DNA of 64,000 bases from Clostridia bacterium (GTDB lineage Bacteria; Bacillota; Clostridia; UBA1381; UBA9506): the NCBI GenBank assembly GCA_017399695.1, contig JAFQBK010000002.1, positions 1 to 64,000 on the forward strand. Direction: 5' to 3'. Of the stretch, positions 1,054 to 55,936 are shown one piece after another (positions within the stretch are counted from its first letter, which is position 1; every line of letters starts with the position of its first letter). A program made the translations under genes and the position numbers. A model generated the notes under the pieces. The model did not search any database. It had not been told where the DNA came from and saw only the letters and a list, made by a program, of their open reading frames with translations.

Positions 1054-1078
1054 GTATTTAGTCCAAAAGTTATAATAA

Positions 1079-1132
1079 TACGAAAAAGGTGCGATAAGTG
1101 CTATTTTGTTGCGCCTGTTTTTGTGTTATACT
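1079..1132 (+). promoter_or_regulatory. Promoter with candidate YesN site (site 1)
   Basis: An extended -10 box, TGTTATACT, has its hexamer at 1127-1132. There is no good -35 box. TGCTATTTT starts at 1099, exactly 28 bp before the -10 hexamer, the same geometry as the promoters before yesN and lplB. Bases 1083-1107 match the yesN promoter at about 19 of 25 positions without gaps (shared AAAGGT and AGTGCTATTTT). Confidence 0.55.
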
Positions 1133-1178
1133 TACCGTATAGAAGCTTATTTTGTATCGTCGGACGGAGGGCTATATT

Positions 1179-3152
1179 ATGAGAAACAGACAGGTACATT
1201 TGGATTTTCATACATCGGAAAAGATTGAAAATATCGGCGAAAAATTTTCCAAAGCACAGTTTCAGGAGGCCTTAAAAGTCGGGCATGTGGATTCCATTAC
1301 CATATTTTCCAAGTGTCATCACGGCTGGGCGTACCATCCATCGGATGCCAATGAGATTCATCCCCATTTAAGCTTTGATTTATTGAAAGCACAGCTTGAG
1401 GCAGCGCATGAAATCGGGGTAAAAGCACCGATTTATCTCTCGGCGGGATTTGATGAGAAATATGCGGTGCGTCATCCGGAATATGTACAGCTGTCGGAAC
1501 CGGAACAGGTGGTTGATTTTAAGGACCCGGGTTACCACATCGTCTGTATGAATACGCCATATTTAGAGTATTTGCTCAACCAAATTACGGAGGTTTTAGA
1601 GCGCTATGACGGCGACGGGATTTTCCTTGATATTGTCGGCGTCCGTCATTGTTATTGTCCTGCCTGCCGAAAGACGATGGCAGAGCGTGGTTGGGATGTA
1701 AACGACGAAGAAAAGGTGCATCAGCTGGCAGAAGAAGTATATGCAAACTATACAAGGCGCGTCAGGGAAACGGTGGATGCAGTGAAGCCCGGTCATCCGG
1801 TCTTTCACAATACAGGACATATTACCTGCGGCAGACGGGATATGGCACATATGAACAGTCATCTTGAGCTGGAAAGTCTACCGACAGGTGGCTGGGGCTA
1901 TGACCATTTTCCTTTATCTGCGGCATATGCGAGAACGCTTGGCATGGACTATCTCGGAATGACAGGAAAATTCCATGGCACCTGGGGCGAGTTTGGTGGC
2001 TATAAGCACCCCAACGCACTACGGTATGAGACCGCCCTTTCGGTTGCCAATGGCGCGGCGGTTTCTGTTGGTGACCAGCTGCATCCGTCCGGTGAAATGG
2101 ATATGGCGACCTATCAGAGTATCGGAGAGGCGTACCGCGAGGTAGAGGCGTTGGAACCGTGGCTTACGAAAGGAAAATACTGCTCGGAAATTGCGATTTT
2201 GTCGCAGGAAGCGATGAAGGAATATTATGAGCATCCAAATTTTAATAAGATTGGCAGAGATTTTTCCGGTAATACCGGTGCGACAAGAATGCTTTTAGAA
2301 GGTCAGTTCACCTTTGATGTAGTGGACCACGAAGCAGACCTTTCGGGCTATAAGGTCTTGATTTTGCCGGATACGATTTTGCTTGATGCCTATATGCAGA
2401 AAAAAGTCCGCGACTTTGTCCGTGGTGGCGGCAAGGTTTTGGCCAGCGGTGTTTCCGGTCTTAACTGCGAAAAAACGGAATACTGCATTGATTTCGGGGT
2501 AAAATATATGGGAGAATCCGAGTATACCCCGGACTATCTGAGATTGCCCGAAAATATGGGAGGTCTGTATGCCGCAGACTATATCATTTATGCACAGGCA
2601 CAAAAACTTGCGCTTGATGGCGGAGAAGAGCTTGTGCAGCACATTCGCCCGTATTTTAACAGAACGCGGGAGCATTTTTGCTCTCACCGTCACGCACCGT
2701 CTTCGGGCGAGACTTATGGTGCGGGTGTTGTTTTGGGAAAAGACGGCATTGTTATTCCGTGGAACATTTTTCATGAGTATGCGACCTGCGGTTCGTTGAT
2801 TTCCAAAGTGGTGGTGCACCATGCACTGAATCTGCTTTTGGACAACCAAAAAACAGTGGAAACAAGTCTGCCCTCAAGAGGAATTGTAACGCTTGCAGAT
2901 TGCGGCGAATTTTTCCGTAATCATTTACTGTATGTGTCGCCTATGAAGCGTGGCGACGGCGTTGAAATTGTCGAGGATATTCTTCCGGTTCATGATGTTA
3001 AGGTGCGTATCCGAGTAGGCGAGAACACCATCGACAAAGTATATACTGCACCGCAAAAAGAGGAAATTCCGTTTGTGCAGGAGGGAGAATTCGTCTCCTA
3101 TCACCTCAAAAAGATAGAAAATCATCAGGTGGTCATTTTAGAGAAAAAATAA
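1179..3152 (+). CDS. TIM-barrel glycoside hydrolase (GHL6-like) with trimerization-type domain
   Basis: A 657-residue protein without a signal peptide, so probably cytoplasmic. The start ATG at 1179 follows GGACGGAGGGC; an earlier TTG at 1152 has no such site. The N-terminal half resembles the alpha-amylase-superfamily group GHL6: a barrel with an internal motif GDGIFLDIVG followed by a C-x-C-x-x-C cluster (HCYCPACRK), then HNTGH and GMTGKFHGTWGEFGG. The middle (about 340-450) resembles the beta-galactosidase trimerization fold, including a VLILPDT motif and a conserved FVRGGGKVLASG segment. The tail is a beta-sandwich-like region. Substrate is not evident; fucosidase- or galactosidase-type activity is possible. 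Its promoter carries the same element as the yesN and lplB promoters, which ties it to the glycan locus. Confidence 0.75.
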   Translation: MRNRQVHLDFHTSEKIENIGEKFSKAQFQEALKVGHVDSITIFSKCHHGWAYHPSDANEIHPHLSFDLLKAQLEAAHEIGVKAPIYLSAGFDEKYAVRHPEYVQLSEPEQVVDFKDPGYHIVCMNTPYLEYLLNQITEVLERYDGDGIFLDIVGVRHCYCPACRKTMAERGWDVNDEEKVHQLAEEVYANYTRRVRETVDAVKPGHPVFHNTGHITCGRRDMAHMNSHLELESLPTGGWGYDHFPLSAAYARTLGMDYLGMTGKFHGTWGEFGGYKHPNALRYETALSVANGAAVSVGDQLHPSGEMDMATYQSIGEAYREVEALEPWLTKGKYCSEIAILSQEAMKEYYEHPNFNKIGRDFSGNTGATRMLLEGQFTFDVVDHEADLSGYKVLILPDTILLDAYMQKKVRDFVRGGGKVLASGVSGLNCEKTEYCIDFGVKYMGESEYTPDYLRLPENMGGLYAADYIIYAQAQKLALDGGEELVQHIRPYFNRTREHFCSHRHAPSSGETYGAGVVLGKDGIVIPWNIFHEYATCGSLISKVVVHHALNLLLDNQKTVETSLPSRGIVTLADCGEFFRNHLLYVSPMKRGDGVEIVEDILPVHDVKVRIRVGENTIDKVYTAPQKEEIPFVQEGEFVSYHLKKIENHQVVILEKK

Positions 3153-3171
3153 GAGCATAAAACACAATAGT

Positions 3172-3208
3172 AAGCGGTGTGTTCTTAAAGGATGCACCGC
3201 TTTATATA
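3172..3208 (+). terminator. Probable terminator
   Basis: AAGCGGTG (3172-3179) pairs with CACCGCTT (3195-3202) followed by TATAT. The T-tract is weak, so the call is tentative. Confidence 0.45.
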
Positions 3209-3218
3209 AGCAAAAAAA

Positions 3219-3272
3219 TGCTATAAAGGTACTTTGAGTGCTATTTTTATTGTGCAGGGAATGTGATATAAT
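3219..3272 (+). promoter_or_regulatory. yesN promoter with candidate YesN site (site 2)
   Basis: TATAAT is at 3267-3272 and no -35 consensus precedes it. TGCTATTTTT starts at 3239, 28 bp before the -10 hexamer, and a second copy, TGCTATAAA, starts at 3219, 20 bp further up. Two same-strand half-sites two helical turns apart are typical for AraC-type regulators. Confidence 0.6.
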
Positions 3273-3360
3273 GATACAAGCAAGTAGGTTTATCGGAAAA
3301 GACTCCTGCTGTATTGACAGAATATGAATGCAAATCAGACCAAAGATTGAGGGGATGGAT

Positions 3361-4620
3361 ATGTTTAACATTGTAATTGTTGATGATGAACGCATTATCC
3401 GTATGGGCTTGCGCGCATATTTCCAGGAGGATTTAAAATCTTATTTCGTCCTGGAAGACTTTGATAATGCAGAAGATACCATCGCATATCTGAAACAGAA
3501 CCACGAGAAGGTGGATGTTGTCCTGGCGGATATTTGTCTTCCGCGTGACAATGGGATTGAAGTGGCAAAACAAATTTTTGAAAACCAGTGGAATATAGTC
3601 GTCATTCTGATTTCCGGGCACAAGGAATTTGCGTATGTCAAGCAGGCGTTTAAGTACAATGTGTATAACTACCTCGAAAAACCCATCAATTTTGAGGAGC
3701 TTGATGAGATTTTTGGAAAACTTGAGGAGGAACTCAAGTGGAAAAAGCACCGAACCTTCTCTGCCTGGGAAAAAGAAGAAAATGCCCTGCGCTTTATTGG
3801 CTTTTTGACTGCGGCCTATACGGGGCTTTATGCTGATAAAACACAGATGGAAAAACAGTTAAAACAGCTTCAACTGTCTCCGGAGCTGATGATGCTTCCC
3901 TGCGCCCGCCTTTCACTTGAATGCACGGACAGTGTGGAAAATGTGCAAAAATACGGCAAAGGCAGTATGGACAATGTGCTGTCTAACTGCTTGTTAAACC
4001 CGTATATTGACTTTTATCCAATGTATGAAAATGATGGTTATCGGGAAATGATTGCGGTTAGTAAGCAGGGAGCAGGCGATGTGGTCTTTGATAAAATGCT
4101 TGCTACGGTCTTAAAGGCGCTGGAAACAGAATTTGTACAGCTTGGACTCTCCTTAAAACTACTCAAAACCGAGGTTTTTGACGATTTATCTATCATGAAT
4201 GAAAATGCACAGCAGATGACGGCAGAGCAGAGCGATATGAAAGATAATATGGAGGCGATGCTCAAGGAGTCTGCATCCGAGAAAGCAGACGATAAGCTTT
4301 TAGACCGGCATATTATTAAGGCACTTGAATATATCAAAGTAAATTATAAAAATGACATTTCCATCGGTGAGGTTTCGCGATATGTCGCACTCAGTCCGGG
4401 TTATTTCAGTCGTGCATTTAAGCTTTGCACAGGGAAATCCTTTACGGATTACTTGCTTGATTTGCGGATGGATAAGGCAAAAAGTCTTTTGAAGATGACG
4501 GCACTTAATGTGTCTGAGGTCAGCCGTGAAGTCGGCTATCATGATGTCAACTACTTTATCCGGCTGTTCAAAAAGCGCGTCGGCTGTACTCCCAGTAAAT
4601 ATAAAAAGGGAGGAGAATGA
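3361..4620 (+). CDS. yesN: AraC-type response regulator, YesN family
   Basis: A 419-residue response regulator. The receiver domain (about 1-120) shows the acidic pair D8-D9, the phospho-acceptor D57 in LADICLP, S85 and K107 in YLEKP. A linker of about 190 residues follows, and an AraC/XylS double helix-turn-helix occupies about 318-419 (ISIGEVSRYVALSPGYFSRAF and VSEVSREVGYHDVNYFIRLF segments). The start at 3361 is favoured over ATG 3355 because GAGGGG lies 6 nt upstream. It overlaps or abuts yesM and is expected to activate sugar-uptake genes when phosphorylated by YesM. The promoter carries a candidate self-binding site. Confidence 0.92.
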   Translation: MFNIVIVDDERIIRMGLRAYFQEDLKSYFVLEDFDNAEDTIAYLKQNHEKVDVVLADICLPRDNGIEVAKQIFENQWNIVVILISGHKEFAYVKQAFKYNVYNYLEKPINFEELDEIFGKLEEELKWKKHRTFSAWEKEENALRFIGFLTAAYTGLYADKTQMEKQLKQLQLSPELMMLPCARLSLECTDSVENVQKYGKGSMDNVLSNCLLNPYIDFYPMYENDGYREMIAVSKQGAGDVVFDKMLATVLKALETEFVQLGLSLKLLKTEVFDDLSIMNENAQQMTAEQSDMKDNMEAMLKESASEKADDKLLDRHIIKALEYIKVNYKNDISIGEVSRYVALSPGYFSRAFKLCTGKSFTDYLLDLRMDKAKSLLKMTALNVSEVSREVGYHDVNYFIRLFKKRVGCTPSKYKKGGE

Positions 4621-4622
4621 AA

Positions 4623-6404
4623 ATGAAAATTTTTACGTCATACCCAAAAAACGATGCAAGGCTTATGCGTCTGTTCCGGAAAAATCTGTTGATTTTTTCA
4701 CTGACGATTATCTTCTTTATTTTGGTTTCGACTTGCTCATTTTTTGTTTATAGTACTTATATCTATAACAATCAACTAAACGATATCAACAGCAATATTT
4801 TACAGCGCGCATCTTACACAGGTGACGCGCTGCTTTCGCAGGTGGAGCACACCTTGATTCGTCTTTCGCAGGAGGACTGGATGCGCGATTTTCTGATTGA
4901 ACAGAATGTCTTATATGATGTAGAGGAGCTGCGCGAACTGTTGAAGAATCAGCGACTCTCTAATACCAATATTGACTCTATCAATCTATACAATGTTACG
5001 GGAGGCACGGTACTTTCCGAGCCGATGGAAAAAGGAGCCTGGGGCGCAGAGGATACGTTCATCTATGCAATGCAGGAGAACCCGTCGGTGACTCATATCG
5101 AGGTTAAGGCATATAAAGACAACTATCCGTACTACATCCGCATTGGGCGGGGCGTGTATTACGAGGGGCATTTTGGAGCCGTTGTAGCAAATATCAATGT
5201 AGAGTCGTTTCATGATGTTCTATCTACGGTGGATGAAAAAGAAAATATTAAAACGATGATTCTGACAGAGGATGGAAGAATTGCCTATATGAATCCGCTG
5301 TATGACCGGTTTTTGAAGGAATATACAGTAGAGGGTAGCGGAGATGTGGTGGCGATGTCTATGCCTTCTAAATTTTCCGGACTTGTGTACCGTTCCGAGA
5401 TTTCCGAGGCATATTTTATCGGCATTCGCAATATGTATATTATCTTGATTGCGGTAATGAGTTTTGTACTTTTGATTGTCGGTGCCATTCTTGCGATGTA
5501 TTATACCAAACGAAGCGTTACGCCCCTTAGCATGATTCTACATACGGTCGAACATTACGGGGAAGATACCGGCGATATGAAGAGCCCAGTGGAGATTCAG
5601 TGTATTTTGGATGATATCCGCAATACCATAAAAGAACGGCGTGACGAGGATATATTGTTGGCACTTCGTATGCTGTCCTTAAAATTCTCGCAGATTCAGG
5701 CGCTTGAAGTGCAGATGAATCCGCACTTTTTGTACAATTCGCTGGATACAATTAACTGGATGGCGTATATGAAATTCGGCAGAAATAATGAGGTTTCCAC
5801 CTCGATTCGAAATCTCTCCGATATGCTCAAATACAGCATCGACACGGACGCTTATATCGTACCGTTTGAGGATGAGTTGAAGTACACGGGAATGTATGAA
5901 CATATCCTCAAGCAAAACTATGGTAGTTCCATACAGATCGAGTATTTGCTTGCGGACCAGACCTTTGGGCTTGAGACGGTAAAATTCCTTTTGCAACCGC
6001 TGATTGAGAATTCCTTGCATCATGGGCTCGAAAAGGGAAAACGAAGCGGAACCATCCGGGTTTCTTCACGCATATTTGACGATTGTTGGGAAGTTTCGGT
6101 GGAGGATGACGGCAAGGGGCTTTCTCCGGAGGAGATTAGGGACCTCAATGAAAAGCTTCAGCGCAGCAAAGAGCTGGAGCAGGAAATTACCGATATGGTT
6201 TTCCATGTAAAAAGCGACGGAACGCCAAAATATATGGGTGAAAAAGTGTTGTATCAGGAGAAGAAGGGCGGACACGGTTTATCCAACTTAAACCGCCGGA
6301 TCAAGCTTATCTTCGGTGAGGATTACGGCGTTCGTGTAGAAGCGAGTAAAATGGGCGGACTTTCGGTCGTTGTGCGACAAAAAATGGTCTTGCCGGACCT
6401 CTAA
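4623..6404 (+). CDS. yesM: Sensor histidine kinase, YesM family
   Basis: A 593-residue membrane kinase. A first membrane helix lies near residues 16-40, an outside sensor region of about 230 residues follows, and a second helix lies near 272-295. The kinase part has the His_kinase signature LEVQMNPHFLYNSLDTINW with the phospho-His, the N-box PLIENSLHHGL, and ATP-binding glycine motifs EDDGKGLSPEE and GGHGLSNLNRRI. ATG 4623 is chosen because AGGAG (4611-4615) is 7 nt upstream; ATG 4617 would be only 1 nt from it. The gene follows the yesN stop by 2 nt, so the two are co-translated. It probably senses an oligosaccharide or its binding protein outside the cell. Confidence 0.92.
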   Translation: MKIFTSYPKNDARLMRLFRKNLLIFSLTIIFFILVSTCSFFVYSTYIYNNQLNDINSNILQRASYTGDALLSQVEHTLIRLSQEDWMRDFLIEQNVLYDVEELRELLKNQRLSNTNIDSINLYNVTGGTVLSEPMEKGAWGAEDTFIYAMQENPSVTHIEVKAYKDNYPYYIRIGRGVYYEGHFGAVVANINVESFHDVLSTVDEKENIKTMILTEDGRIAYMNPLYDRFLKEYTVEGSGDVVAMSMPSKFSGLVYRSEISEAYFIGIRNMYIILIAVMSFVLLIVGAILAMYYTKRSVTPLSMILHTVEHYGEDTGDMKSPVEIQCILDDIRNTIKERRDEDILLALRMLSLKFSQIQALEVQMNPHFLYNSLDTINWMAYMKFGRNNEVSTSIRNLSDMLKYSIDTDAYIVPFEDELKYTGMYEHILKQNYGSSIQIEYLLADQTFGLETVKFLLQPLIENSLHHGLEKGKRSGTIRVSSRIFDDCWEVSVEDDGKGLSPEEIRDLNEKLQRSKELEQEITDMVFHVKSDGTPKYMGEKVLYQEKKGGHGLSNLNRRIKLIFGEDYGVRVEASKMGGLSVVVRQKMVLPDL

Positions 6405-6436
6405 AATGACAATATATATAAGAAAAAACAGAATAA

Positions 6437-6491
6437 TGCTAATTTTATAAGAACCAGTGCTATTTTATAACCTCTCCTTTTCGTATATAAT
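6437..6491 (+). promoter_or_regulatory. lplB promoter with candidate YesN site (site 3)
   Basis: TATAAT lies at 6486-6491 without a -35 box. TGCTATTTTATAA (6458-6470) begins 28 bp before the -10 hexamer, and the near-identical TGCTAATTTTATAA (6437-6450) begins 21 bp further up. This is the clearest direct repeat of the three sites. Confidence 0.65.
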
Positions 6492-6514
6492 TAATGATAA
6501 AAGGAGGGGTTTTT

Positions 6515-7465
6515 TTGTCATCTTTAACAAAATCTATGAAACAAAGTGCTCCGGAAAAGGCCTTAAGAGCGAAGCGGGGCGCACAAAGAAAAGACATCAT
6601 GCTGCTTACTTGTATGCTGCTTCCGTCTTTTATCTACTACATTGTATTCCACTATCTGCCGATGTGCGGTATTGTTATCGCATTTAAGGACTACACATAC
6701 AGTGGAGGAATGTTCGGAAGTGACTGGAATGGCTTTAAGAACTTCGAGTATTTCTTTACATCGACGGACGCATGGGTCATCACCAGAAATACCATTCTTT
6801 ATAACCTGGTGGCGATTGTATCGACGGTTACAACGAACGTAGCGATCGCGCTGGTATTGTTTGAAGTCAGCAGCCGTAAGGCGCTGAAGTATTATCAAAC
6901 GACAATGCTTCTGCCGAACTTTATGTCCTGGGTTGTAGTCAGCTATATCACCTATGCGTTGTTCGACTATGACTACGGCGTAATTAATCATATGTTTGGT
7001 ACAGACATCAACTTTTACGCTGAACCGGTCTACTGGCCGTTTATCCTGTCCTTCGTTAATGTATGGAAGGGAATCGGTATGGGATCCGTTATGTACTATG
7101 CCGCACTGATGGGAATCGACACCGAACTCTTTGAAGCGGCAAAAATTGATGGAGCGAATAAGTGGCAGCAAATCTGGCACATTTCGATTCCGTCTCTTAA
7201 GAACATTATGGCGGTTTTGATCATTATGGGAACCGGCAACATCTTCCGCGGGGACTTCGGGTTGTTCTACCAGATTCCAATGGATGTCGGTAACCTTTAC
7301 TCGGTCACAGACGTTATCGATACTTATGTATACCGTGGTTTGTCGGGTGGCGAATATGGTTCGACGGCAGCGGTCGGACTGTTCCAGTCCGTGGTTGGTT
7401 TATTCACAATTATCTGTGCGAATTCGGTGGTTAAGAAGATTAGCCCCGAAAGCGCAATGTTTTAG
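6515..7465 (+). CDS. lplB: Sugar ABC transporter permease, LplB type
   Basis: A 316-residue integral membrane protein of the MalF/LplB permease class with about six helices. It contains the EAA loop for contact with the ATPase (ELFEAAKIDGANKWQQIWHI). The start is a TTG at 6515 because AAGGAGGGG (6501-6509) is 5 nt upstream; the ATG at 6494 lies before this site and the next ATG (6536) is too far. It forms the import channel with the downstream permease and the binding lipoprotein. No ATPase gene is in the window, so a shared MsmX-type ATPase elsewhere is expected, as is usual in this family. Confidence 0.9.
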   Translation: MSSLTKSMKQSAPEKALRAKRGAQRKDIMLLTCMLLPSFIYYIVFHYLPMCGIVIAFKDYTYSGGMFGSDWNGFKNFEYFFTSTDAWVITRNTILYNLVAIVSTVTTNVAIALVLFEVSSRKALKYYQTTMLLPNFMSWVVVSYITYALFDYDYGVINHMFGTDINFYAEPVYWPFILSFVNVWKGIGMGSVMYYAALMGIDTELFEAAKIDGANKWQQIWHISIPSLKNIMAVLIIMGTGNIFRGDFGLFYQIPMDVGNLYSVTDVIDTYVYRGLSGGEYGSTAAVGLFQSVVGLFTIICANSVVKKISPESAMF

Positions 7466-7482: not shown

Positions 7483-8385
7483 ATGCTGAAAAACAGAGCA
7501 TATTACAGATCGCAGGCAATCATCAATGTTGTTATGGTTTTAATTTCAATGTTGTTCGTATTGCCGCTGATTCTTTTAATCTCCTCATCTTTAACAGATG
7601 CCGAGGCACTCAAAGACGGCGGATACAGTTTAATTCCAAGAAGCTTTTCGCTTGCCGCATACCAGAGTATCTTCAGTAATCCGCAACAGATTATTGATGG
7701 CTATAAGACAACGATTTTTGTTTCGGTAACAGCGGCACTTGCTGGAACCTTCGTGATGTGTTTGACAGCATATCCGTTGTCCCGCAGTTACTTTCCGATG
7801 AAAAAGGTGTATAACTGGTTTATCTTTTTCCCAATGCTGTTTTCGGGCGGTATGATTCCAAGTTATATTATCAATACGCAGTATCTGAATCTGGACAACA
7901 CCTATTGGATTTATATTCTTCCCGCATTGTGCAGCACATGGAATGTTATCATTATCAAGACCTTCTTTTTAGGTCTTCCGAATGAAATTTTTGAGTCGGC
8001 AAAAATCGACGGAGCAAGTGAGCTTTCCATCTTCTTCCGGTTTGTGCTTCCGCTTTCCAAGCCGGTTATTGCGACGATGGCGCTGACAACGCTTTTAGGT
8101 AAGTGGAACGACTGGAATACCGCACTTCTCTACATCAGAGATACCGAGCTTTACAGTCTCCAGTACCTCTTGCAGAGAATCTTGCGTGAAGCAGAGTTCA
8201 TTAAGCAGATGAGCTACAATACAGAAATCAATATGGGTATGATTGATGTCGGTAGCCAGCAAGCGGCACCTGAGGTTATCCGTTATGCAATGTGTATCGT
8301 TGCAGCGGGTCCTGCGCTTTGCATTTTCCCGTTTTTCCAGAAGTATTTTGCAAAGGGTTTAACCGTTGGTTCAGTTAAAGGTTAA
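7483..8385 (+). CDS. lplC: Sugar ABC transporter permease, LplC/MalG type
   Basis: A 300-residue membrane protein with about six helices, the second permease subunit. The EAA motif is seen in NEIFESAKIDGASELSIFFR. It starts 17 nt after lplB with a strong AAAGGAGG site. The N-terminus has a typical LplC opening (SSSLTDAEALKDGGYSLIPR). The C-terminal end, AKGLTVGSVKG, is the usual family ending. It works with lplB and the solute-binding protein that follows. Confidence 0.92.
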   Translation: MLKNRAYYRSQAIINVVMVLISMLFVLPLILLISSSLTDAEALKDGGYSLIPRSFSLAAYQSIFSNPQQIIDGYKTTIFVSVTAALAGTFVMCLTAYPLSRSYFPMKKVYNWFIFFPMLFSGGMIPSYIINTQYLNLDNTYWIYILPALCSTWNVIIIKTFFLGLPNEIFESAKIDGASELSIFFRFVLPLSKPVIATMALTTLLGKWNDWNTALLYIRDTELYSLQYLLQRILREAEFIKQMSYNTEINMGMIDVGSQQAAPEVIRYAMCIVAAGPALCIFPFFQKYFAKGLTVGSVKG

Positions 8386-8428: not shown

Positions 8429-9988
8429 ATGAAAAAGAGTATCAAATTAATTGCGGCAGTTTTGGCATGTGTGATGGTTTTAGGACTCTGCGCTTGTGGC
8501 GGAAGCCAGACAGCAACCGATACTGACGGTGAAGTTACATTAAAATGGCTCACCGCAGGTCCCGGCAAACAGAAAGATTCCGATTTGGTTTGGGCAACAT
8601 TCAATGAAAAATTAGCAGAAAAAATGCCGAATACACAGGTTGAAATCGAAGCACTGCCGTTTGCAGACTTCGCTGAAAAATGGCGCCTGATGATTGCGGC
8701 AAACGAGACGATTGATATTGCTTGGTCCGGTTATGCAGTCAACTACACAGATGAAGTGAAAAAAGGCGGATACTTAGAGCTTAACGATTTACTTACCCAG
8801 TACGCACCGAAGCTTTACAAGAGTATGCCGGAATGGGTATGGGATCTAATGGAAGTTGATGGAAAGATTTACGGTATCCCGTGTTATCAGATGATGGCTT
8901 CCCGTCCGGCGGGTTTTAAGGTATTTAAAGAAGATGCAGAGAAATACATGGATTACAAAACCTTAGAAGAAGAACTGCTGAAGAAATCAGAGGCAGGTAA
9001 TCCGGTTCTCAGCGAAAAAGCATTTGATGTGATTGAAAATTACTTGCTGGCTCTGAATGCTAACGGCGTTCCCAACAAGGGATTTGCTCCGTATAATATC
9101 GCATTTATCGGTGAAGCAGAAGCACAGAGCGACTATGGTCTTTCCAGCCCGGTTAACACCGTTTACCTCGAGTATGATGAAACCGGCAGACCGATTGCAA
9201 AAGACGGTTGTGCACCGGATGTTACCGATGTTTTCTATAAGCGCATGGCAGGAATCTATCAGAAAGGCTTAATCCGTAAGGACGTTTTGACCGCTTCTGA
9301 TATCCGCGCAGATGAAGGTGTCATTGGCGGTTATGCAATGTGGTATCATGCTTATGATAAATTTACTGAACAGCAGGAAAGCCTCCAGATTGGTAAGGAT
9401 ATTAAGGTTATCCACGGTGAAGAAAAATATATCAGACCGACCGGTCCTGCTGCAACCAACAACTCTCTGCCGCGTTCCTGCTCGAACCCTGTAAGGGCAA
9501 TGCAGTTCTTAGAAGTATTAAACGATCCGGCAGATACCTCCCTTTATAATATGTTGGTATACGGTATCGAAGATAAGCACTACAAAAAGGTCGGCGACAA
9601 CAAAATCGAAACTTTGGATTATGTAGGTAGCCCGACCCTTGATTCCGGCTATGGTATTCAAAAGTGGGTTATTGGTGACAGCTTTAACGCTTACATGACC
9701 CAGGGTGATGTAGAAGGCTACGATGAGTATGTAAAAACCGATATGAACGCAAATGCTGTTGCAGGCAACATGGAAGGTTTCAAATTTGACAAAACTCCGG
9801 TTAAGACGGAGCTTGCACAGATTGACAGCGTAAGAAAAGAGTTCTACGGTCTGCGTTATGGTACATATACCGATTGGCAGGCAAAATTGAAAGAATACCG
9901 CGAAAAGGTTCAGAAGTGCGGTCAGCAGAAGGTTATCGCTGAAGTACAGCGTCAGCTGGATGCTTGGTATGACGCACAGAACAAATAA
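8429..9988 (+). CDS. Extracellular solute-binding lipoprotein
   Basis: A 519-residue substrate-binding protein of an ABC importer. The signal peptide ends in the lipobox L-C-A-C at residues 20-23, so it is anchored outside by Cys23. After that comes a family-1/LplA-like binding fold (VTLKWLTAGPG opening; DIAWSGYAVNYTDEVKKGGYLELNDLL segment). ATG 8429 is chosen because GAGAGG lies 8 nt upstream; ATG 8423 is only 2 nt away. It is in the same operon as lplBC, 43 nt downstream. The bound sugar is unknown; large LplA-like proteins bind oligosaccharides. Confidence 0.9.
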   Translation: MKKSIKLIAAVLACVMVLGLCACGGSQTATDTDGEVTLKWLTAGPGKQKDSDLVWATFNEKLAEKMPNTQVEIEALPFADFAEKWRLMIAANETIDIAWSGYAVNYTDEVKKGGYLELNDLLTQYAPKLYKSMPEWVWDLMEVDGKIYGIPCYQMMASRPAGFKVFKEDAEKYMDYKTLEEELLKKSEAGNPVLSEKAFDVIENYLLALNANGVPNKGFAPYNIAFIGEAEAQSDYGLSSPVNTVYLEYDETGRPIAKDGCAPDVTDVFYKRMAGIYQKGLIRKDVLTASDIRADEGVIGGYAMWYHAYDKFTEQQESLQIGKDIKVIHGEEKYIRPTGPAATNNSLPRSCSNPVRAMQFLEVLNDPADTSLYNMLVYGIEDKHYKKVGDNKIETLDYVGSPTLDSGYGIQKWVIGDSFNAYMTQGDVEGYDEYVKTDMNANAVAGNMEGFKFDKTPVKTELAQIDSVRKEFYGLRYGTYTDWQAKLKEYREKVQKCGQQKVIAEVQRQLDAWYDAQNK

Positions 9989-10043: not shown

Positions 10044-12674
10044 ATGAAATTGATTCGTTTATTGCTCGTTGCTCTCTTGCTTTTCAATACAACCATTGGT
10101 GTTGTATCGGCAGCTGAACCGACGATTGAGTATTTTGTAGATGCTAACGCAGAGCTTTCCGGCGATGGTAGCATCGATGCTCCGTTTGCAACTGTTCAGG
10201 AAGCACAGGAGCAGGTCAGAAGCTTAAAAAGAAGCGGTCAGTATCCGTCCGGCGGCGTCATTGTGACGCTGCGCGGCGGGGACTACCGTATGAATGAGAC
10301 GCTTACCTTTACTGCTGAGGATAGTGGTAAAGAGGGGGCACCGGTCGTATACCGCGCTTACCCGATGGAGGAGGTTAACTTCTCCGGTTCCGCATCCCTG
10401 AAGTTAGGCGACTTTGTGGTTTCCACGGATGAGCGTATTCCTGCTTCGGCACAGGGTAAGGTATATCAGTACAGCTTAACGGCAAACAATGTTGAGCCAT
10501 ATAAGGAACTTCAGATTACCGGTCACGCCAGCTACTACATCTATTTGTGGGGTCTCACTCCCTATAACGGCGGCGATGCAGTTCCGACGGTTTATATCAA
10601 TGATGAGCCGGGAACACTTGCCCGTTACCCCAACGGCAACGAGTTCATGACGATTGAATCGGTTCAGGAGGCGGGCTCTAATATTCGTGACCTCTGCAGA
10701 GTGATTGAAGAAGGAATCGAATCTAGAAAAGAACGCTCGATGGATGAGGTAGAATCTCCGGTATTTACACCGGCAGGTATTGACCTTGCGCGTGCAGAGC
10801 GTTGGTCCAATGCAAAGAACGCGTGGATGAATGGCTACTGGTTCTATGACTGGTCCGACCAGACGATTCCGGTGGCTAGTGTTGACGGAGCTACCAAGCA
10901 GATTACCTGTGCCGCACCGAGCACATATCAGGTGCGGAATGGACAGAGATTCTTCATTTATAACCTGATTGAAGAGTTGGATGACCCGGGGGAATGGTTC
11001 TATGATAAAGACAATGGAACGCTTTATATTTATCCGAAACAGGCAAAGGCAGATGCAATCGTTGATATCGCGTTTAACACGAATCCGATTGTTGTATTTA
11101 ACGGTGCGGAGTGGATTGATTTCCGTAATATTAATGTAGCGGCAACCCGTTCTGACGCTATTAAGGTGCATAACTCCAAAGATATTAACATCTTCGGTTG
11201 TACGGCAAGAAATGCAGCGAATTGCGGTATTACGGTAGATAGTAACTGCCGCAGAGTAGTTGTGGATAGCTGTCACGTATATAATCTCGGTTATAGAGGT
11301 ATTGAAATAGGAGGCGGAGATCTCATTACCTTAGAGCGTGGTGATAACGTTGCTACAAACAACTGGGTTCATGACTTTGGACAGACGACGAAAACCTATG
11401 CGCCGGGCATCGGTATCGGCGGTGTAGGCACAATTGTTCGAAATAACCTGATTCATGACGGTCCAAGCTCCGGTATTACCTTCTCCGGCAACGATACCTT
11501 AATCGAGCGTAACGAGATTCACTCCGTGATGAAAGAGGGCGCGGACATGGGTGTTATGTACTTCGGTCGAAGCACTTTGGACCGTGGCCAGGTCATCAGA
11601 GAGAATATTATTCACGATATGGCTTCTGACTCCGCTCACGGCGGTCAGAACGGTATCTATTTAGACGATATGGGTGCGCAGGTGGATATCGTAGACAACC
11701 TGTTCTACAACCTAGATGGTTGTGCAGTTTTTGTTAACGGCGGCCGTGATAATCATGTAGAAAACAATTTGTTTATTAACTGTACAACGGCAATGGATCT
11801 GACCGATATTGGTATGGCAAGTGGTTGGGATTATAATTTAGACTTCTTTAAGCAGTTCCTTCTTAAAGACACTGACCGTCACCTGTCCGAGCCGTATGCG
11901 AAATACGAGCATCTGGCAAATATTTTAGAAGACGACCCGCTCATGCCGAAGTACAATACCTTCAAAAACAATGTTGCATATAAGGTAGATACGCTTGAAA
12001 AAATTTCCAACTTTGTTTCCGGCGGAAGTACGCTGACTCCGGCAGATGTTCGTAAGGTAAATACCTGGGAAAGCAATGTAATGGTCAACTCATTAGACGG
12101 CTTTGTTGACCCGGCAAACAGTAACTACAACGTAAAACCGAATGGACTGATTCAGGAAAAGGCTCCGAACTACAAACCGGTTGATTTCACTAAGGCAAGC
12201 TTAATTACCAGTCGCTTAAAGGTAAACCTTTCTGACGATGCAATCGTTCTTTCTGTAGGCAAGCCCTTAAGCTATGTCAACTGGAAGCAGGCTTTGGTTG
12301 ACCCGAAGAACCTCTCCGTTGTTCCGTTTATCGAAAACGACTATACGATGGTTCCGGTCAGATTCTTAATTGAATCCTTGGGCGGCAAGGCAGACTTTGT
12401 TGACGGCAAGGTTATCTTAAATTATGAAGGCCGTGAGCTTGTGATGACCTCCGGCAGTGCGGAAGCAACCATCGACGGTGAAACCGTAATGCTCGACAAC
12501 GCAGCAAAGATTGTTGACGGACGTACCTTTATTCCTTTACGTAATTGCAGTGAGCTCTTTGGCAAAGAAGTATTCTGGGATAACGGCGGACTGATTGTCG
12601 TTTCCGGCAAAAATATGACCGATATCCTGGATGTCGATATGATTGACAACCTGCTCGAAAGACTGGCTTATTAA
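10044..12674 (+). CDS. Secreted right-handed beta-helix protein with stalk domain
   Basis: An 876-residue exported protein. The signal peptide runs to about residue 23 (cut near VSA-A). Residues about 28-650 form a right-handed parallel beta-helix: an opening DGSIDAPFATVQEA, the block NAWMNGYWFYDWSDQT, then many short N-rich coils (NNLIHDG, RNEIHSV, DNLFYNL, ENNLFIN). Such folds are used by polysaccharide lyases and glycosidases, though no catalytic set can be assigned. The C-terminal 110 residues (about 750-860) are a copper-amine-oxidase N-terminal-like stalk domain (MVPVRFLIESLGG and RTFIPLRNCSELFG), which usually binds the cell wall. It follows the binding lipoprotein by 55 nt and is probably in its operon. 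A paralogue lies at 21611-23458. Confidence 0.85.
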   Translation: MKLIRLLLVALLLFNTTIGVVSAAEPTIEYFVDANAELSGDGSIDAPFATVQEAQEQVRSLKRSGQYPSGGVIVTLRGGDYRMNETLTFTAEDSGKEGAPVVYRAYPMEEVNFSGSASLKLGDFVVSTDERIPASAQGKVYQYSLTANNVEPYKELQITGHASYYIYLWGLTPYNGGDAVPTVYINDEPGTLARYPNGNEFMTIESVQEAGSNIRDLCRVIEEGIESRKERSMDEVESPVFTPAGIDLARAERWSNAKNAWMNGYWFYDWSDQTIPVASVDGATKQITCAAPSTYQVRNGQRFFIYNLIEELDDPGEWFYDKDNGTLYIYPKQAKADAIVDIAFNTNPIVVFNGAEWIDFRNINVAATRSDAIKVHNSKDINIFGCTARNAANCGITVDSNCRRVVVDSCHVYNLGYRGIEIGGGDLITLERGDNVATNNWVHDFGQTTKTYAPGIGIGGVGTIVRNNLIHDGPSSGITFSGNDTLIERNEIHSVMKEGADMGVMYFGRSTLDRGQVIRENIIHDMASDSAHGGQNGIYLDDMGAQVDIVDNLFYNLDGCAVFVNGGRDNHVENNLFINCTTAMDLTDIGMASGWDYNLDFFKQFLLKDTDRHLSEPYAKYEHLANILEDDPLMPKYNTFKNNVAYKVDTLEKISNFVSGGSTLTPADVRKVNTWESNVMVNSLDGFVDPANSNYNVKPNGLIQEKAPNYKPVDFTKASLITSRLKVNLSDDAIVLSVGKPLSYVNWKQALVDPKNLSVVPFIENDYTMVPVRFLIESLGGKADFVDGKVILNYEGRELVMTSGSAEATIDGETVMLDNAAKIVDGRTFIPLRNCSELFGKEVFWDNGGLIVVSGKNMTDILDVDMIDNLLERLAY

Positions 12675-12709
12675 TTAGGAAGAAATTCGATTACGGAAAG
12701 AGGGAGATT

Positions 12710-15658
12710 ATGAAGAAATTTTTCAGTGTGCTCTTGAGCACAATGCTGATTTTCGCTCTGATATTACCGGCTTCTGTGCCGGTAGTATCGGCGGCAACGA
12801 CTTACAGCAATGATTTTGAAAGTTATCAAACGACTGCGCAGGTGCAGGCAGCAATGGCTGCGAACGGAACGGCAGTTGCTTTGGCAACGGATTCCGACCC
12901 GGCGAGAAACAAGGTTTTGTCGGTAACGGCGGCAAGCAAGAACGTTGCAATCACTGATATCAGTACCGTGCCGCAGACCGGCAAATGGGTTTATCAGTTT
13001 GACTTAAAGACAAACTGCCAGATTCAGACCTTAGACCTTTATGACGGTAACTGGGGTAGTTTGTTCGGTCTTAACTCCTCTTCGGGTGACCCGAACGTAA
13101 AATGTAGCGGTGTAACCGTTGCCCGTGCATTTGATATGGTAGCCGGTGTAGCAAATGTGTATTGGCATACTTACCGCTTTGTTTTTGATGCAGGTGCAGC
13201 TACTTATTCCTTGTATGTTGACGGCGAACTCAAAACAAGCGGTACATATAATTCTCAGAAAAAAGCCAGACGCCTGAGAATTCAAACACTTACGACTCCG
13301 AGTGCGACCAACATTATGTATCTTGATAATATTGTCTTAAAGCAGGAAGGCGTCGAAATTACCGGCGTTTCTCCGGCAACGGGCGCAACGGGTGTTGAGG
13401 TTAATTCCAACATTGCGCTGACCTTCGTAAATCCGCCGACGCAGGTGGAAGCAGGAAAAATCAGCATCAAAGCGGGCGGTGCGACCGTAAACCCGTCGGA
13501 GTATACCGTAACGGCGACTTCGGCAAATGTATGGACCATTCACTTTACCAACGGAATGGACTACAGCAAAACCTATGAACTGACGGTTGACAAGAGTCTG
13601 ACGCCTCCGGCAACAGGTCTTGTAGGAATGGATTCCGATTTTGTAACCACATGGACAACCAAGTCTATTCTTCCGGCAATTACCGGAATCGCAGACGGCG
13701 GCACCTATTCCTACAGCGCAACGCCGACGATGGCGGCACCGGCATCCGGTGTAACGATTGCTACAACGCTTGCAAAGGACGGTGGCGATGCGTCTGCTTA
13801 TACCATGGGTACCGCAATCACCGAGCAGGGCTCTTACGTTTTAGCCGTAACTGCAACCGAAACCGCAACCGGCAAAACCGAAACGAAAGTATTTGCCTTT
13901 GCGATTGTTGGAGCAACGGCTCCTGTTGCATCAAATACCGAGATTACCGCAAGCGGTGAGATGAGAATCGGAACCGTGCTGACAGCAACCTACGATTATT
14001 TCGATATCAACGGCGATGCCCAAAGCGGCAGTGTTGGTCGTTGGTATAAATCCACAACGGGTGCAGAGGGTTCCTTTACGCCTTGTACGGATGAGCTGAC
14101 CCTGGTTGGTAACACCAGCACCTATACAATCGCTGAGAACGACTACTATTATCAGTTTGTCGTAACACCGAAAACGACCGTTGAACCTTTGGTAGGTGAA
14201 CCCGATGAATCTTCGGTATTTACCGGTGCATTCCTGCCGACCGTAACGGATGTAAAAATTGAAGGTGAGGCAGTCGTCGGTCAGAACTTCACCATTACCA
14301 GCTACGACTATGACGATGTCAATGGCGAGGCAATGAACGCAAATACCGCATATCAGTGGTACCGCAGTACCGACGGCGGCGAAACCTATGATCCGATTTT
14401 AGGCGAAACCACCAATACACACTTGGTTTCTAATGATGATGCTGACGCACTTCTTTATGTAGCGATGATTCCGCATAAGGGTGTAACGCAGGATGTTGCA
14501 GGTCTGCCGGCAGATTCGAATATTTTGGCAGGTCCGGCAGCTCCGGTCGCAAGTGATGTTACCATCAATGGTACCGCAAGCGTTGGACAGAGCCTCTATG
14601 TAACCTATACTTATACGGATGTAAACGGCAATAAAGAAGACGGAACGGAAATTACCTGGTATGTTGACGGTGTTAGAACCGAAACAGGTAAGCACCTGAC
14701 TCTCACCTCTGACATGGTAGGCGCAGAAATTTCTGTAACCGTTCAGCCGAAAACGACTGTATATCCGCAAACCGGTGCGCCTGTACCGTGTGACGAGACG
14801 GTAATCGTTCGTTCCGGTTCGGTTAGACCGTCCGGCGGCGGTGGCGGAAGACTTCCGTCCTCGAAAAACGAGACCCCGACCACTCCGGCAACACCGACCC
14901 CGTCGGCACCTCCGGCAGTTACGGGCTTTACGGATACGGCTTCCCATTGGGCAAAAGATTCCATCAAGAAGATGTACGATAAGGGCATCGTTTCCGGTAT
15001 TACGGAAACCGAATTTGCACCGGACATGAGCATCACCCGTGCACAGGCGGCAGTTTTGTTTGCGAGAGCATTCGAGCTTTCTGGCAGCGCCGATGCAGGT
15101 CTTTCCGATGTGAATGGCGAGTGGTTTGCAGAGGGCGTTAATGCTGTGGCAGCAGCCGGCTTTATGCAGGGCGCTGACGGAAAATTCCGTCCGGACGACA
15201 AAATCACACGTGAAGAAATGGCAATGGTATTTTACAATATCGCAAAAGCAAAGGGTCTGACCTTTGATGCAAGCGAAACAGGCGTAAGCTTTGACGGCGT
15301 ATCCGGCTGGGCATTAGAGGCGATGAAATTCGCTAACGGTGCAGGCTTGATTAACGGCATGGACGATGGCTTGCTCCATTCGAAAGACAGTGCGACCCGT
15401 GCACAGTTTGTGGTTATTTTAGATCGTTTTATGACGAAGGGTGTGGAGGCGCCGGCTGCTCCGGAAACGGAAGAACCGGCATCGGAGACCACTGAGGAGG
15501 TGGCTCCTGAAACAGAAGAAACTACCGAAACAGTTACTGAAGAGGTAGCAGAAGAGGTAACGGAAGAAAAGGTTACCGAGGAAGTGACGGAAGAAACAAC
15601 GGAAGAAACCGTTGAAACGGAAGAAATCGTAGAGGAGGGTGAGACGAATGAAGAATAA
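12710..15658 (+). CDS. Multi-domain SLH surface protein with acidic repeat tail
   Basis: A 982-residue exported protein. The signal peptide ends near residue 28. Residues about 29-220 are a ConA/LamG-like beta-sandwich (TYSNDFESYQ opening), about 218-310 a bacterial Ig-like domain of the SbsA type (GVSPATGATGVEVNSNIALTF), and about 403-700 three diverged Ig-like repeats beginning near 403, 507 and 610, each with a Y-x-D-x-N-G core. A Gly/Pro/Thr linker leads to three SLH motifs (about 739, 797 and 857), which bind pyruvylated wall polymer. The last 70 residues are almost wholly E, T, V and P. The start has AGAGGGAG upstream. It overlaps the next gene by 11 nt. It probably displays a carbohydrate-binding platform on the wall. 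Confidence 0.85.
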   Translation: MKKFFSVLLSTMLIFALILPASVPVVSAATTYSNDFESYQTTAQVQAAMAANGTAVALATDSDPARNKVLSVTAASKNVAITDISTVPQTGKWVYQFDLKTNCQIQTLDLYDGNWGSLFGLNSSSGDPNVKCSGVTVARAFDMVAGVANVYWHTYRFVFDAGAATYSLYVDGELKTSGTYNSQKKARRLRIQTLTTPSATNIMYLDNIVLKQEGVEITGVSPATGATGVEVNSNIALTFVNPPTQVEAGKISIKAGGATVNPSEYTVTATSANVWTIHFTNGMDYSKTYELTVDKSLTPPATGLVGMDSDFVTTWTTKSILPAITGIADGGTYSYSATPTMAAPASGVTIATTLAKDGGDASAYTMGTAITEQGSYVLAVTATETATGKTETKVFAFAIVGATAPVASNTEITASGEMRIGTVLTATYDYFDINGDAQSGSVGRWYKSTTGAEGSFTPCTDELTLVGNTSTYTIAENDYYYQFVVTPKTTVEPLVGEPDESSVFTGAFLPTVTDVKIEGEAVVGQNFTITSYDYDDVNGEAMNANTAYQWYRSTDGGETYDPILGETTNTHLVSNDDADALLYVAMIPHKGVTQDVAGLPADSNILAGPAAPVASDVTINGTASVGQSLYVTYTYTDVNGNKEDGTEITWYVDGVRTETGKHLTLTSDMVGAEISVTVQPKTTVYPQTGAPVPCDETVIVRSGSVRPSGGGGGRLPSSKNETPTTPATPTPSAPPAVTGFTDTASHWAKDSIKKMYDKGIVSGITETEFAPDMSITRAQAAVLFARAFELSGSADAGLSDVNGEWFAEGVNAVAAAGFMQGADGKFRPDDKITREEMAMVFYNIAKAKGLTFDASETGVSFDGVSGWALEAMKFANGAGLINGMDDGLLHSKDSATRAQFVVILDRFMTKGVEAPAAPETEEPASETTEEVAPETEETTETVTEEVAEEVTEEKVTEEVTEETTEETVETEEIVEEGETNEE

Positions 15659-18395
15659 GCTTTTATCTTTATTACTCGCAGTCGTATTAATTTGTTCGTT
15701 TACCACCGTATCCTTTGCGGTAGTAGACGATGTGCCGATTCCGACCTGGTTAAACACCTCGGGCGGACAGAAATTTGACACCTTAACCGAGCGCAGTGGC
15801 GCGGCATACGACCTTCTTTCCTATATCGGCGTCATCACGAAAGAACGCCTGGATATTGACTCAGCAAAAGAAGTCACCCGCGCAGAAGCAGTAGCTGCAG
15901 CAGTTCGACTGGTTGTTGGCGATGGTATTGCCGAAGCAGAGAGTACGCCTTACGGCGATGTATCCTCAAGCCACGCATATATCAATGAAATCGCAATGGC
16001 AAAACAGATGGGACTGTGCGATGCAAACGGTACGAGATTCACTCCGGATGAACCGGCATTACCGGCATCTGTTGCCCGCTACATCGTAAAAGCATTGGGT
16101 CTTGATGTGTTCGTGAAAAACGACGCATACCTGACCTATGCGATGGCAAATGACATTTTTAACAGTGTTTCCGTCAGCGGAACGACCCCGATTACCTGGG
16201 AACAGCTGCTTCTGATTTTGCAGAATGCGTTGCATCTTTCGGTAACGGAAGCACGTGGCATTGATTCTGACGGCGAAATTTCCGGTATCGTGGTAAAAGA
16301 CACCACATATCTGGAAGAAAAACACGGTATTACCCTGATGAAAGGTGTAGTCACCGCAGCAGCAAATGTTGGTATCTACGATGCTTCCAAAATGAAAGCA
16401 GACCAGATTGCAATCAACTATGCAAAATATACTTCCATTCCAAAGGTAGACCTCGACTGGGTTGGCAGAAGTGTTTACGCATATGTTGACAACAATGCAA
16501 ACAATATGATTGCACTGTTTGAGGACAGAAACGAAGTATACGAGGTAGCAAAGCACCGCTATCTGCGCTCTGGCGCGAATTCGCTTTATTATGAGACAGA
16601 AACCGGAGACGAGGAAGAGATTGCAGTAAGAGCGAGCGCAGCAGTAACCTATAACGATGTTTACTACGGCTCATTTTCGCAGTCCGCATCTCTGTTTGAT
16701 GCATCGAAGACCTATACCTTGATTGATAATAACAAAGATGGTCAGGTCGATGTGGTTCAGGTTCGTAAATCAGAAGAGCGCTTAGTGACTGCCGTATCTG
16801 CTTATTCTGAAATTATCGCATTTGCTTACGGCAAAGACTCGATTCATATGAACGACCCGAGCATTAACCTCTTGTACTGCGAGCTTTCCGGTCAGCCGGC
16901 AGAGGTTTCTGATATTTTAGCAAATGACATCATGTCCTTATATGTCGGAACCTATCCGGACGGCACGAAACTCTACCGTATGGATATCCACCGCGAGTCA
17001 ATCGAGGCGGTATTAGAGGAAATTATTACGGTTTCCGCAAGCGAGCGGTACTTCGTGGTTGATGGCGAAACCTATCCGCTCACCGAGACCTACATTGCAT
17101 ATTTAGCAGGCGGCCACTCGGAAACACTTCCGACCGCAGGCAAAACCGCACGTTTTTACCTGAATAAGGACGGCGAAATTGCGGCATCGAAAGTAAGCTC
17201 CGATTATTCCTTTGCATACCTTTTGGGTGTTGAGGATGGCGGCTTCGATGGTCAGGCGCAGATTTGGATGTACCTCTCGAACGGTAAAGAGGCGATTTAC
17301 CCCATCTCCGATAAGGTGCTGTACTATAACGGCACCAGCGTAACCCCGACGAAAATGACGGGCAACGACCTGGCGGCAGCCCTCAATCAGAAGGCAAGCC
17401 CGGTGGCGTATAAGGTAAGTGATGACGGTGTCCTGACCGAGATTGCACTCCCGATGAACAGAACGTCATATCCGCACGCAAGCATCACCTATCCGCTCAC
17501 TAAGGATAAGGTAATGGCATCCGGCGACCGTCTCTATACCGGTTACTTTGGTTCAAAATACAATCTCAAATCCTCTTTCGTTATTATGTATCCAAACCAT
17601 TTGGATTCGAGCTACTCCAACGTAGATGTGGATTATTTCTCCTCGATGAGTGGTATGTCTGATCGCTACGGTGATGACTACTACTTTAACAGCGAGACTG
17701 TAACGCTCTATAATGTTGACAAGTTCTTCAAACCGGCGTATGTAACGGTTGGAGTTCAGAGCTCGTTGAGTGGTGGCGCAGGTGCTCCGGTGGACGACTT
17801 TACACAGACCGCGGTTATCGAAAAGATTACCAAAGCAATCGATTCCAGTGAAAATGTCGGCTACCGCATCAGCTACAGAAACCGCTTCGGCCTGCAGTCA
17901 GCAATGGTAATCCCTGATGTGTACGTCCAGTACGAAACCGGCGAGAACTATGTCGGTGCAAAGGATGAGCTTTCCGAGTTCGAGTTCGGTGATGTGGTTC
18001 AGATTTCGAAGAACTTCAACGACGAAATCGAGACCATCCGTATGATATTTAACGCAAACGAGCGTGGAGACTATCGCGTACAGAACAGTGACAAAGGAAC
18101 AATATCCGCAACGACCCGTGACACGACAGGCTTCAGCCGTCTGGCAGTTGTTTACGGTAAGGTCGTAGACAGAAGCGGCGGAACGTTCTTAGTAAACCTT
18201 AAGTATGCAAATGAAACCACCGATATCTTATTCCCTGAGGAGGTTTCGGGTCTTTACGATACACCGCAGTATATCTTAGTAGATACCGCGGCGAAGAAGA
18301 CAGAGCTCATCGCTATGACGGATATTCTGCCAGGTGACGAGATTGTGATGAGAAAGCGCTATAATATCGCATCCGACGTTTACATTTACAGATAA
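15648..18395 (+). CDS. Large exported protein with SLH-like N-terminus, unknown body
   Basis: A 915-residue exported protein. The signal peptide is cut near residue 24 (VSFA-VVDD). Residues about 45-180 look like two to three SLH motifs (DLLSYIGVITKERLDID, ITRAEAV-like VTRAEAVAAAVRLV, and MAKQMGLCDANGTRFTPDE). The remaining 700 residues match nothing I recognise; they are beta-rich with repeats of the form YLNKDGEIAASKV and D/N-rich turns. ATG 15648 is preceded by GGAGGG at 8 nt and lies inside the end of the previous gene, so translation is coupled. Coupling suggests the two surface proteins are made in matched amounts and may assemble together. Confidence 0.75.
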   Translation: MKNKLLSLLLAVVLICSFTTVSFAVVDDVPIPTWLNTSGGQKFDTLTERSGAAYDLLSYIGVITKERLDIDSAKEVTRAEAVAAAVRLVVGDGIAEAESTPYGDVSSSHAYINEIAMAKQMGLCDANGTRFTPDEPALPASVARYIVKALGLDVFVKNDAYLTYAMANDIFNSVSVSGTTPITWEQLLLILQNALHLSVTEARGIDSDGEISGIVVKDTTYLEEKHGITLMKGVVTAAANVGIYDASKMKADQIAINYAKYTSIPKVDLDWVGRSVYAYVDNNANNMIALFEDRNEVYEVAKHRYLRSGANSLYYETETGDEEEIAVRASAAVTYNDVYYGSFSQSASLFDASKTYTLIDNNKDGQVDVVQVRKSEERLVTAVSAYSEIIAFAYGKDSIHMNDPSINLLYCELSGQPAEVSDILANDIMSLYVGTYPDGTKLYRMDIHRESIEAVLEEIITVSASERYFVVDGETYPLTETYIAYLAGGHSETLPTAGKTARFYLNKDGEIAASKVSSDYSFAYLLGVEDGGFDGQAQIWMYLSNGKEAIYPISDKVLYYNGTSVTPTKMTGNDLAAALNQKASPVAYKVSDDGVLTEIALPMNRTSYPHASITYPLTKDKVMASGDRLYTGYFGSKYNLKSSFVIMYPNHLDSSYSNVDVDYFSSMSGMSDRYGDDYYFNSETVTLYNVDKFFKPAYVTVGVQSSLSGGAGAPVDDFTQTAVIEKITKAIDSSENVGYRISYRNRFGLQSAMVIPDVYVQYETGENYVGAKDELSEFEFGDVVQISKNFNDEIETIRMIFNANERGDYRVQNSDKGTISATTRDTTGFSRLAVVYGKVVDRSGGTFLVNLKYANETTDILFPEEVSGLYDTPQYILVDTAAKKTELIAMTDILPGDEIVMRKRYNIASDVYIYR

Positions 18396-18407
18396 AACAA
18401 AATCATA

Positions 18408-18467
18408 GGGCAGGAGCTCAGCTCCTGCCGCAAACCGATGCGGAACGACCAAGGCCGTTCCCTACGG
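18408..18467. repeat. REP-like palindromic unit
   Basis: GCAGGAGCT (18410-18418) pairs with AGCTCCTGC (18420-18428), and GGAACG (18442-18447) pairs with CGTTCC (18456-18461), followed by CTACGG. Units of this look (GGAACGACCAAGG...) recur as intergenic repeats in related Clostridia from general knowledge; only one copy is seen here. It lies between two surface-protein genes and could dampen readthrough, but has no T-tract. Confidence 0.5.
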
Positions 18468-18578
18468 AAAACACAACGGTTTAACCCTCGAAAGAGGCTT
18501 AAATAAAAAGCAACTTCCTTTCTTGTGTAGACGGTACACGAAAAAGGGGTTAGTAACAAAATAGGAAGGTGGAACAAG

Positions 18579-21605: not shown

Positions 21606-21644
21606 AGAGTGTGCGCCTGTACGTAGGTACCGAAGGTAACTACG
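21593..21644 (+). promoter_or_regulatory. Candidate -1 frameshift site
   Basis: CCCAAAC at 21593-21599 is read in the first gene as C-CCA-AAC, the X-XXY-YYZ phase for -1 slippage. The stop TAA (21603-21605) follows one codon later. A -1 shift continues as CCG-CTA-AAG-AGT into the frame of the downstream gene at 21611 with no stop. A hairpin follows at 21622-21644 (CGTAG with CTACG, TACC with GGTA, GAA loop), 22 nt from the heptamer, farther than is typical. Confidence 0.4.
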
Positions 21645-23458: not shown

Positions 23459-23470
23459 TTCGAATGGATA

Positions 23471-23506
23471 AGGGGATGTAAAAAGCAGTTTTTACATCCC
23501 TTTATA
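23471..23506 (+). terminator. Intrinsic terminator
   Basis: GGGATGTAAAAA (23473-23484) pairs with TTTTTACATCCC (23489-23500), followed by TTTATA. It closes the surface-protein operon. Confidence 0.8.
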
Positions 23507-23555
23507 CTAAAAAAGACAAAAATTATTTTCTTTCATTTATATGGAGGGGCTACTT

Positions 23556-25112: not shown

Positions 25113-25129
25113 CACAGGGGGAAATGATT

Positions 25130-26047: not shown

Positions 26048-26061
26048 TCGCGGAGGGACAT

Positions 26062-55867: not shown

Positions 55868-55936
55868 AAAAACAACTGCTAGTTGTTTTTCGTAAGTTAT
55901 TTTTCTATTAATATATATAATAGCATTAAAGTGCTA
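55868..55936. promoter_or_regulatory. Divergent control region with two palindromes
   Basis: AAAAACAACT (55868-55877) pairs with AGTTGTTTTT (55881-55890), and TAGCA (55921-55925) with TGCTA (55932-55936). A TATAAT at 55916-55921 may be the -10 box of the rightward gene, with no clear -35. Confidence 0.4.

Follow-up and report, generated by a model that had tools for sequence, protein, structure and literature searches.

Can the binding site of a sugar-responsive regulator, the regulator itself and the genes under its control be proposed together from the genome of an uncultured species? YesNM two-component systems are very common in gut Firmicutes and, to our knowledge, few of them have a known binding site. 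The locus examined here lies in a stretch of 64,000 nucleotides, hereafter the window, which corresponds to C9:1-64000 of a 1.69-Mb assembly comprising 17 contigs (86.8% complete). The window contains a cluster of the following genes.

1182 to 3152, forward strand: TIM-barrel hydrolase (GHL6 / GH42 trimerisation-like; Pfam PF14871, E 1.3e-28, and PF08532)
3361 to 4620, forward strand: yesN, response regulator with a receiver and an AraC-type DNA-binding domain (Pfam PF00072 and PF12833; nearest solved chain 3lsg)
4623 to 6404, forward strand: yesM, sensor kinase combining a dCache-like sensor with a His_kinase domain (PF06580, E 1.3e-18; PF02743 below cut-off)
6515 to 7465, forward strand: lplB-type permease, with a TTG start behind AAAGGAGGGG (Pfam PF00528; sequence)
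7483 to 8385, forward strand: second permease, ytcP type (Pfam PF00528)
8429 to 9988, forward strand: solute-binding lipoprotein (Pfam PF12010, DUF3502)
10044 to 28695, forward strand: remainder of the presumed transcription unit (all genes on this strand, mostly with short gaps; Pfam)

The remainder of the unit encodes a beta-helix/GH141-like protein, an SLH protein, further exported proteins, a GH3 enzyme, a fucosidase-like protein and a GH38 alpha-mannosidase (26062-28695). For lplB, an alternative ATG at 6494 would sit at or before the expected transcription start. The product of yesN combines an N-terminal receiver domain (PF00072, E 6.6e-23, residues 4-116) with a C-terminal AraC-type double helix-turn-helix (PF12833, E 1.4e-22; PDB 3lsg and 2k9s), and its nearest solved chains include 3lsg, entitled 'Two-component response regulator yesN', and AraC, the arabinose operon regulatory protein. 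Adjacent to it are a YesM-type kinase (PF06580) and the components of a CUT1 transporter, namely two permeases (PF00528 twice) and a DUF3502 solute-binding protein.

The original prediction held that one word recurs in front of the hydrolase, yesN and lplB at a fixed 28 bp from the -10 hexamer, that no -35 box accompanies it, and that a second same-strand copy lies 20-21 bp further upstream at yesN and lplB and is weak at the first site. The features of these three promoters are as follows.

1078 to 1090, forward strand: degenerate distal half of site 1, ATACGAAAAAGGT, identical to that of yesN at 10/13 and 20 bp ahead of the proximal TGC
1097 to 1107, forward strand: site 1 proximal half-site AGTGCTATTTT, exact match
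1127 to 1132, forward strand: site 1 extended -10 element, TATACT with TGT ahead of it; the hexamer begins 28 bp from the start of the TGC
3218 to 3230, forward strand: site 2 distal half-site ATGCTATAAAGGT, its TGC 20 bp before the proximal TGC
3237 to 3247, forward strand: site 2 proximal half-site AGTGCTATTTT, exact match
3267 to 3272, forward strand: site 2 extended -10 element, TATAAT with TGA ahead of it; the hexamer begins 28 bp from the start of the TGC
6436 to 6447, forward strand: site 3 distal half-site ATGCTAATTTTA, its TGC 21 bp before the proximal TGC
6456 to 6466, forward strand: site 3 proximal half-site AGTGCTATTTT, exact match
6486 to 6491, forward strand: site 3 -10 hexamer TATAAT, 28 bp after the TGC start

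A search of the window recovers exactly these three copies of AGTGCTATTTT, all on the forward strand. The TGC begins at 1099, 3239 and 6458 and the hexamer at 1127, 3267 and 6486, which confirms the 28 bp register in three of three. The core TGCTATTTT, searched on both strands of the window, likewise occurs only three times, each time with a -10-like hexamer after a 19-base gap. The upstream TGCs at 3219 (yesN, 20 bp) and 6437 (lplB, 21 bp) agree with the expected second copies; at site 1 the upstream half is as weak as anticipated, having lost its TGC while keeping 10 of the 13 positions of the yesN half. The claim concerning the -35 box stands for sites 1 and 2, where none is present, and needs qualifying for lplB, which has a weak -35-like TTTATA (4/6 match) at 16 bp spacing to the -10. 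Across the -52..-17 region sites 1 and 2 are identical at 25 of 35 positions, and the flanks of the other site pairs at 15-16 of 35. Separately, positions 1087-1116 of the window form a weak hairpin with a T-rich tail over the site 1 operator, which may be due to chance because a better terminator lies at 1026-1045.

We next asked how rare such an arrangement is. When the three upstream regions were shuffled 20,000 times with their dinucleotides preserved, no shuffle contained a common 11-mer, and the longest shared word, a 10-mer, arose once. The word by itself is unspecific, since copies with at most one mismatch to the proximal word number 68 in the whole genome versus 66 for the control. 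Combined with its register it is specific: the genome-wide search for the motif at its distance from a -10 box, proposed with the original prediction and run here as TGCTATTTT-N17..20-TATAMT (pattern TGCTATTTTN{17,20}TATAMT), returned three matches, all of them the sites above, and one match for the reversed control. Three further exact genomic copies of AGTGCTATTTT, found when the spacing rule is dropped (C9:125851-, C9:127482- and C14:118254+), were rejected as sites because no -10 hexamer stands at 28 bp. A near match within the window, AGTGCTATATT at 55930, was also rejected, being out of register and followed by a promoter with its own TTGACA-N17-TAAAAT. Beside that promoter, between divergent genes and outside the YesN register, lies an inverted repeat (55915-55942) that reads AATAGCA-ttaaag-TGCTATATT.

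A pattern of two half-sites plus a -10 hexamer matched the whole genome three times, at the yesN promoter, at the lplB promoter and at a promoter on a different contig, C7, and matched the control once. The C7 site is the sole independent match, because lplB and yesN shaped the pattern. Located at C7:6354 on the reverse strand, it reads ATGCTATATAATCTTAAATTAGTGCTATTGT, with one mismatch to the word; its proximal word is AGTGCTATTGT, the distance from the TGC to TATAAT is 28 bp, and a second copy of the word lies 21 bp upstream. The site was found from the proximal word and, separately, from the word plus -10, and both the upstream copy and the neighbouring glycosidase lay outside the two search criteria. 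When up to two mismatches to the proximal word were allowed together with a -10 hexamer, the genome yielded 19 matches, of which 15 others lack a TGC 20 or 21 bp upstream. One candidate, C8:4233(-), was rejected since, despite the register, it has no upstream copy and a different word.

These searches bear on an alternative in which no specific regulator is involved and the word is either a T-rich element of promoters in general or a remnant of a recently duplicated promoter. A T-rich -35 position does recur in the related systems on C11 and in sibling genomes described below, and the weak hairpin at 1087-1116 overlaps site 1. Against this, word and -10 together are found elsewhere in the 1.69 Mb only at the one-mismatch C7 site and at the weaker C8 candidate with no upstream copy, the flanks diverge (15-16/35) except between sites 1 and 2, and the distal half recurs 20-21 bp before the proximal half in three of the four sites. 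We consider this alternative very improbable.

The C7 site stands ~50-100 bp before a gene for a GH38 alpha-mannosidase, after which come genes for a HAD hydrolase and an iron alcohol dehydrogenase. From its sequence the site is predicted to be the promoter of this GH38 operon and a YesN target. The C7 contig (9.5 kb) has no open reading frame in which a regulator was noticed. The window cluster, too, ends in a GH38 gene, preceded by GH3 and fucosidase-like genes. GH38 enzymes are thus present at both loci, and therefore the window cluster and the C7 operon fit one sugar, probably an alpha-mannoside-containing glycan, as judged from the two GH38 enzymes.

Which protein recognizes these sites? 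Their location and the example of published systems lead us to assign them provisionally to YesN. The ~30 response regulator or AraC-domain matches in the genome leave room for another AraC-type regulator that binds the sites and counts yesN merely among its targets, particularly as the motif was assigned by location only. Yet yesN is the only one of these genes found with a site in its promoter, no other regulator gene having the word in register; local autoregulation is usual in such clusters, and a second yesN promoter, on C11, bears a word of its own. Control by another regulator is, in our estimation, unlikely. The assembly being 86.8% complete, further targets or regulators may be absent from it. 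A search of the genus, the family, the order and a class sample (E<=1e-35 to 1e-40) for YesN orthologues, with which the sites could be compared across species, recovered none. Wider searches for YesN relatives recovered only three distant ones among genome contigs and none among viral contigs.

The layout of the four promoters is that expected of tandem, activator-dependent sites. Same-strand half-sites lie 20 bp apart at yesN and 21 bp apart at lplB and the C7 GH38 promoter, with a degenerate distal half at site 1, and the proximal half overlies the -35 region, where the -35 box is poor, in a 28 bp register in four of four. Taken together, the sites with their register and their rarity, the unlinked C7 promoter, the genes present and the recurrence of this geometry in two further groups of YesN-type regulators make it likely that YesN occupies a pair of same-strand half-sites and activates the hydrolase gene, yesNM, the operon of the transporter and the distant GH38 operon. 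The repeated word would then be the promoter-proximal half of a two-part operator for YesN (3361-4620). In the mechanism that we infer, YesM would sense the sugar outside the cell and phosphorylate YesN, two DNA-binding domains of which would occupy the half-sites 20-21 bp, or two helical turns, apart; the proximal domain, placed over the -35 region, would stand in for the missing -35 contact and, at its set spacing from the -10, assist sigma-A RNA polymerase. Four units would be turned on in this way, comprising the hydrolase (1182), yesNM by autoactivation, the transporter/glycosidase operon (6515 to 28695) and the C7 GH38 operon, and a single sugar-sensing regulator probably switches the four promoters on together. 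The original reading of the sites as operators of an activator, with YesN as the probable regulator, gains support from the unlinked C7 site and from the recurrence of the geometry in the other YesN groups.

The same geometry could also serve repression, with YesN binding and blocking the -35 region, or YesN could act at only some of the sites. The proximal half does cover the -35 position, and of five AraC-type two-component systems in Caldicellulosiruptor bescii only three show the site placement of an activator (PMC8579813). However, sites 1 and 2 have no -35 box left to block, the constant -10 register over four promoters fits activation, and the same study places sites upstream of the promoter for four single-component AraC-family regulators in addition to the three of five two-component regulators. 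Repression or partial action is accordingly somewhat less probable even than control by another regulator, and activation by YesN remains our preferred reading.

Control of this kind is already known, similar AraC-type two-component/ABC regulons having been published (PMC8579813). In C. bescii, AraC-type two-component systems that adjoin sugar transporters have their tandem sites ahead of promoters that have been mapped (PMC8579813). Systems such as BxgRS share with the window a CUT1 transporter encoded next to a kinase and an AraC-domain response regulator, sites made of tandem repeats upstream of promoters, and a local regulon; the genes differ, and here an unlinked GH38 target is predicted as well (PMC8579813). 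XydS/R of Clostridium cellulolyticum also joins a receiver to an AraC domain and controls carbohydrate enzyme genes, and its authors noted direct and inverted repeats near predicted -35 boxes, although the sections of that report used here define no tandem consensus at a fixed -10 distance (PMC3572039). By analogy, the arrangement proposed for YesN is that of XylS-like activators and close to that of AggR promoters. The tandem operators of XylS, AraC and MekR type consist of same-strand half-sites, for XylS TGCA-N6-GGNTA-N6-TGCA-N6-GGNTA with a 21-bp period (quoted in PMC4514859); unlike that formula, the sites here place the proximal TGC only 28 bp from the -10 and carry no second conserved GGNTA-like box. 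AggR promoters likewise require their activator site at a fixed -10 distance (a 21-22 bp gap), but a single AggR site is enough, in contrast to the two halves here (PMC6392122). What the present analysis adds, namely the unlinked GH38 target and a frame common to several YesN-type systems, draws on few systems and is suggestive.

This common frame emerges from two other groups of YesN-type regulators, whose words differ from that of the window. One is a paralogous yesN/yesM/ABC cluster on C11 (L102, G000:C11:108000-127999), where GGTCT-N16-CCTT occurs at three promoters, including that of the cluster's own yesN, followed by 25-26 bp to the -10; the proximal box falls where it does in the window, from -28 to -20 relative to the -10. 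A genome search for GGTCT-N16-CCTT plus -10 returned the three C11 promoters, which match by construction, and an unlinked site on C15 (L116, G000:C15:228846-228898), which does not, with 0 control matches; this fourth match stands before a gene that reads as GH3-like from its sequence. The recognition helices of the window and C11 YesN proteins differ, and so do their words. A third YesN cluster of the genome (C15, L101) has no common word between its yesN and lplB promoters. In sibling genomes, AraC-type response regulators (on L107/L025 and L108/L028) are accompanied by CGGAAAAATCC words with a 21-bp period. The proximal copy stands at a constant 36 bp before TAAAAT, and its second part, which reads TCCGATTTA in L107, again starts 28 bp before the -10. 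The sibling CGGAAAAATCC copies lie at the following positions.

L107, 3214 to 3235, reverse strand, and 3371, forward strand
L108, 11267, reverse strand
L025, 1324 to 1345

It is possible, though we lean slightly against so broad a rule, that the YesN-type regulators of this lineage use different words within one fixed frame, with halves 20-21 bp apart and the proximal half ~28 bp from the -10. Conservation would in that case concern the frame rather than the word, and regulator and regulon could be read directly from the sequence of genomes of uncultured organisms. For the one uncultured species considered here, word, spacing, regulator and targets can be put forward together, and the site search ties an unlinked alpha-mannosidase operon to the transporter cluster. 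The recurrence of the frame in paralogous systems suggests a general way of predicting YesNM regulons.

A minor observation concerns the surroundings of the two GH38-encoding loci: a related dispersed repeat (GATTTTTTTATGCAAAAAA plus flanks) lies upstream of both the window cluster (200-300) and the C7 GH38 operon (L082 6480-6570, reverse strand).
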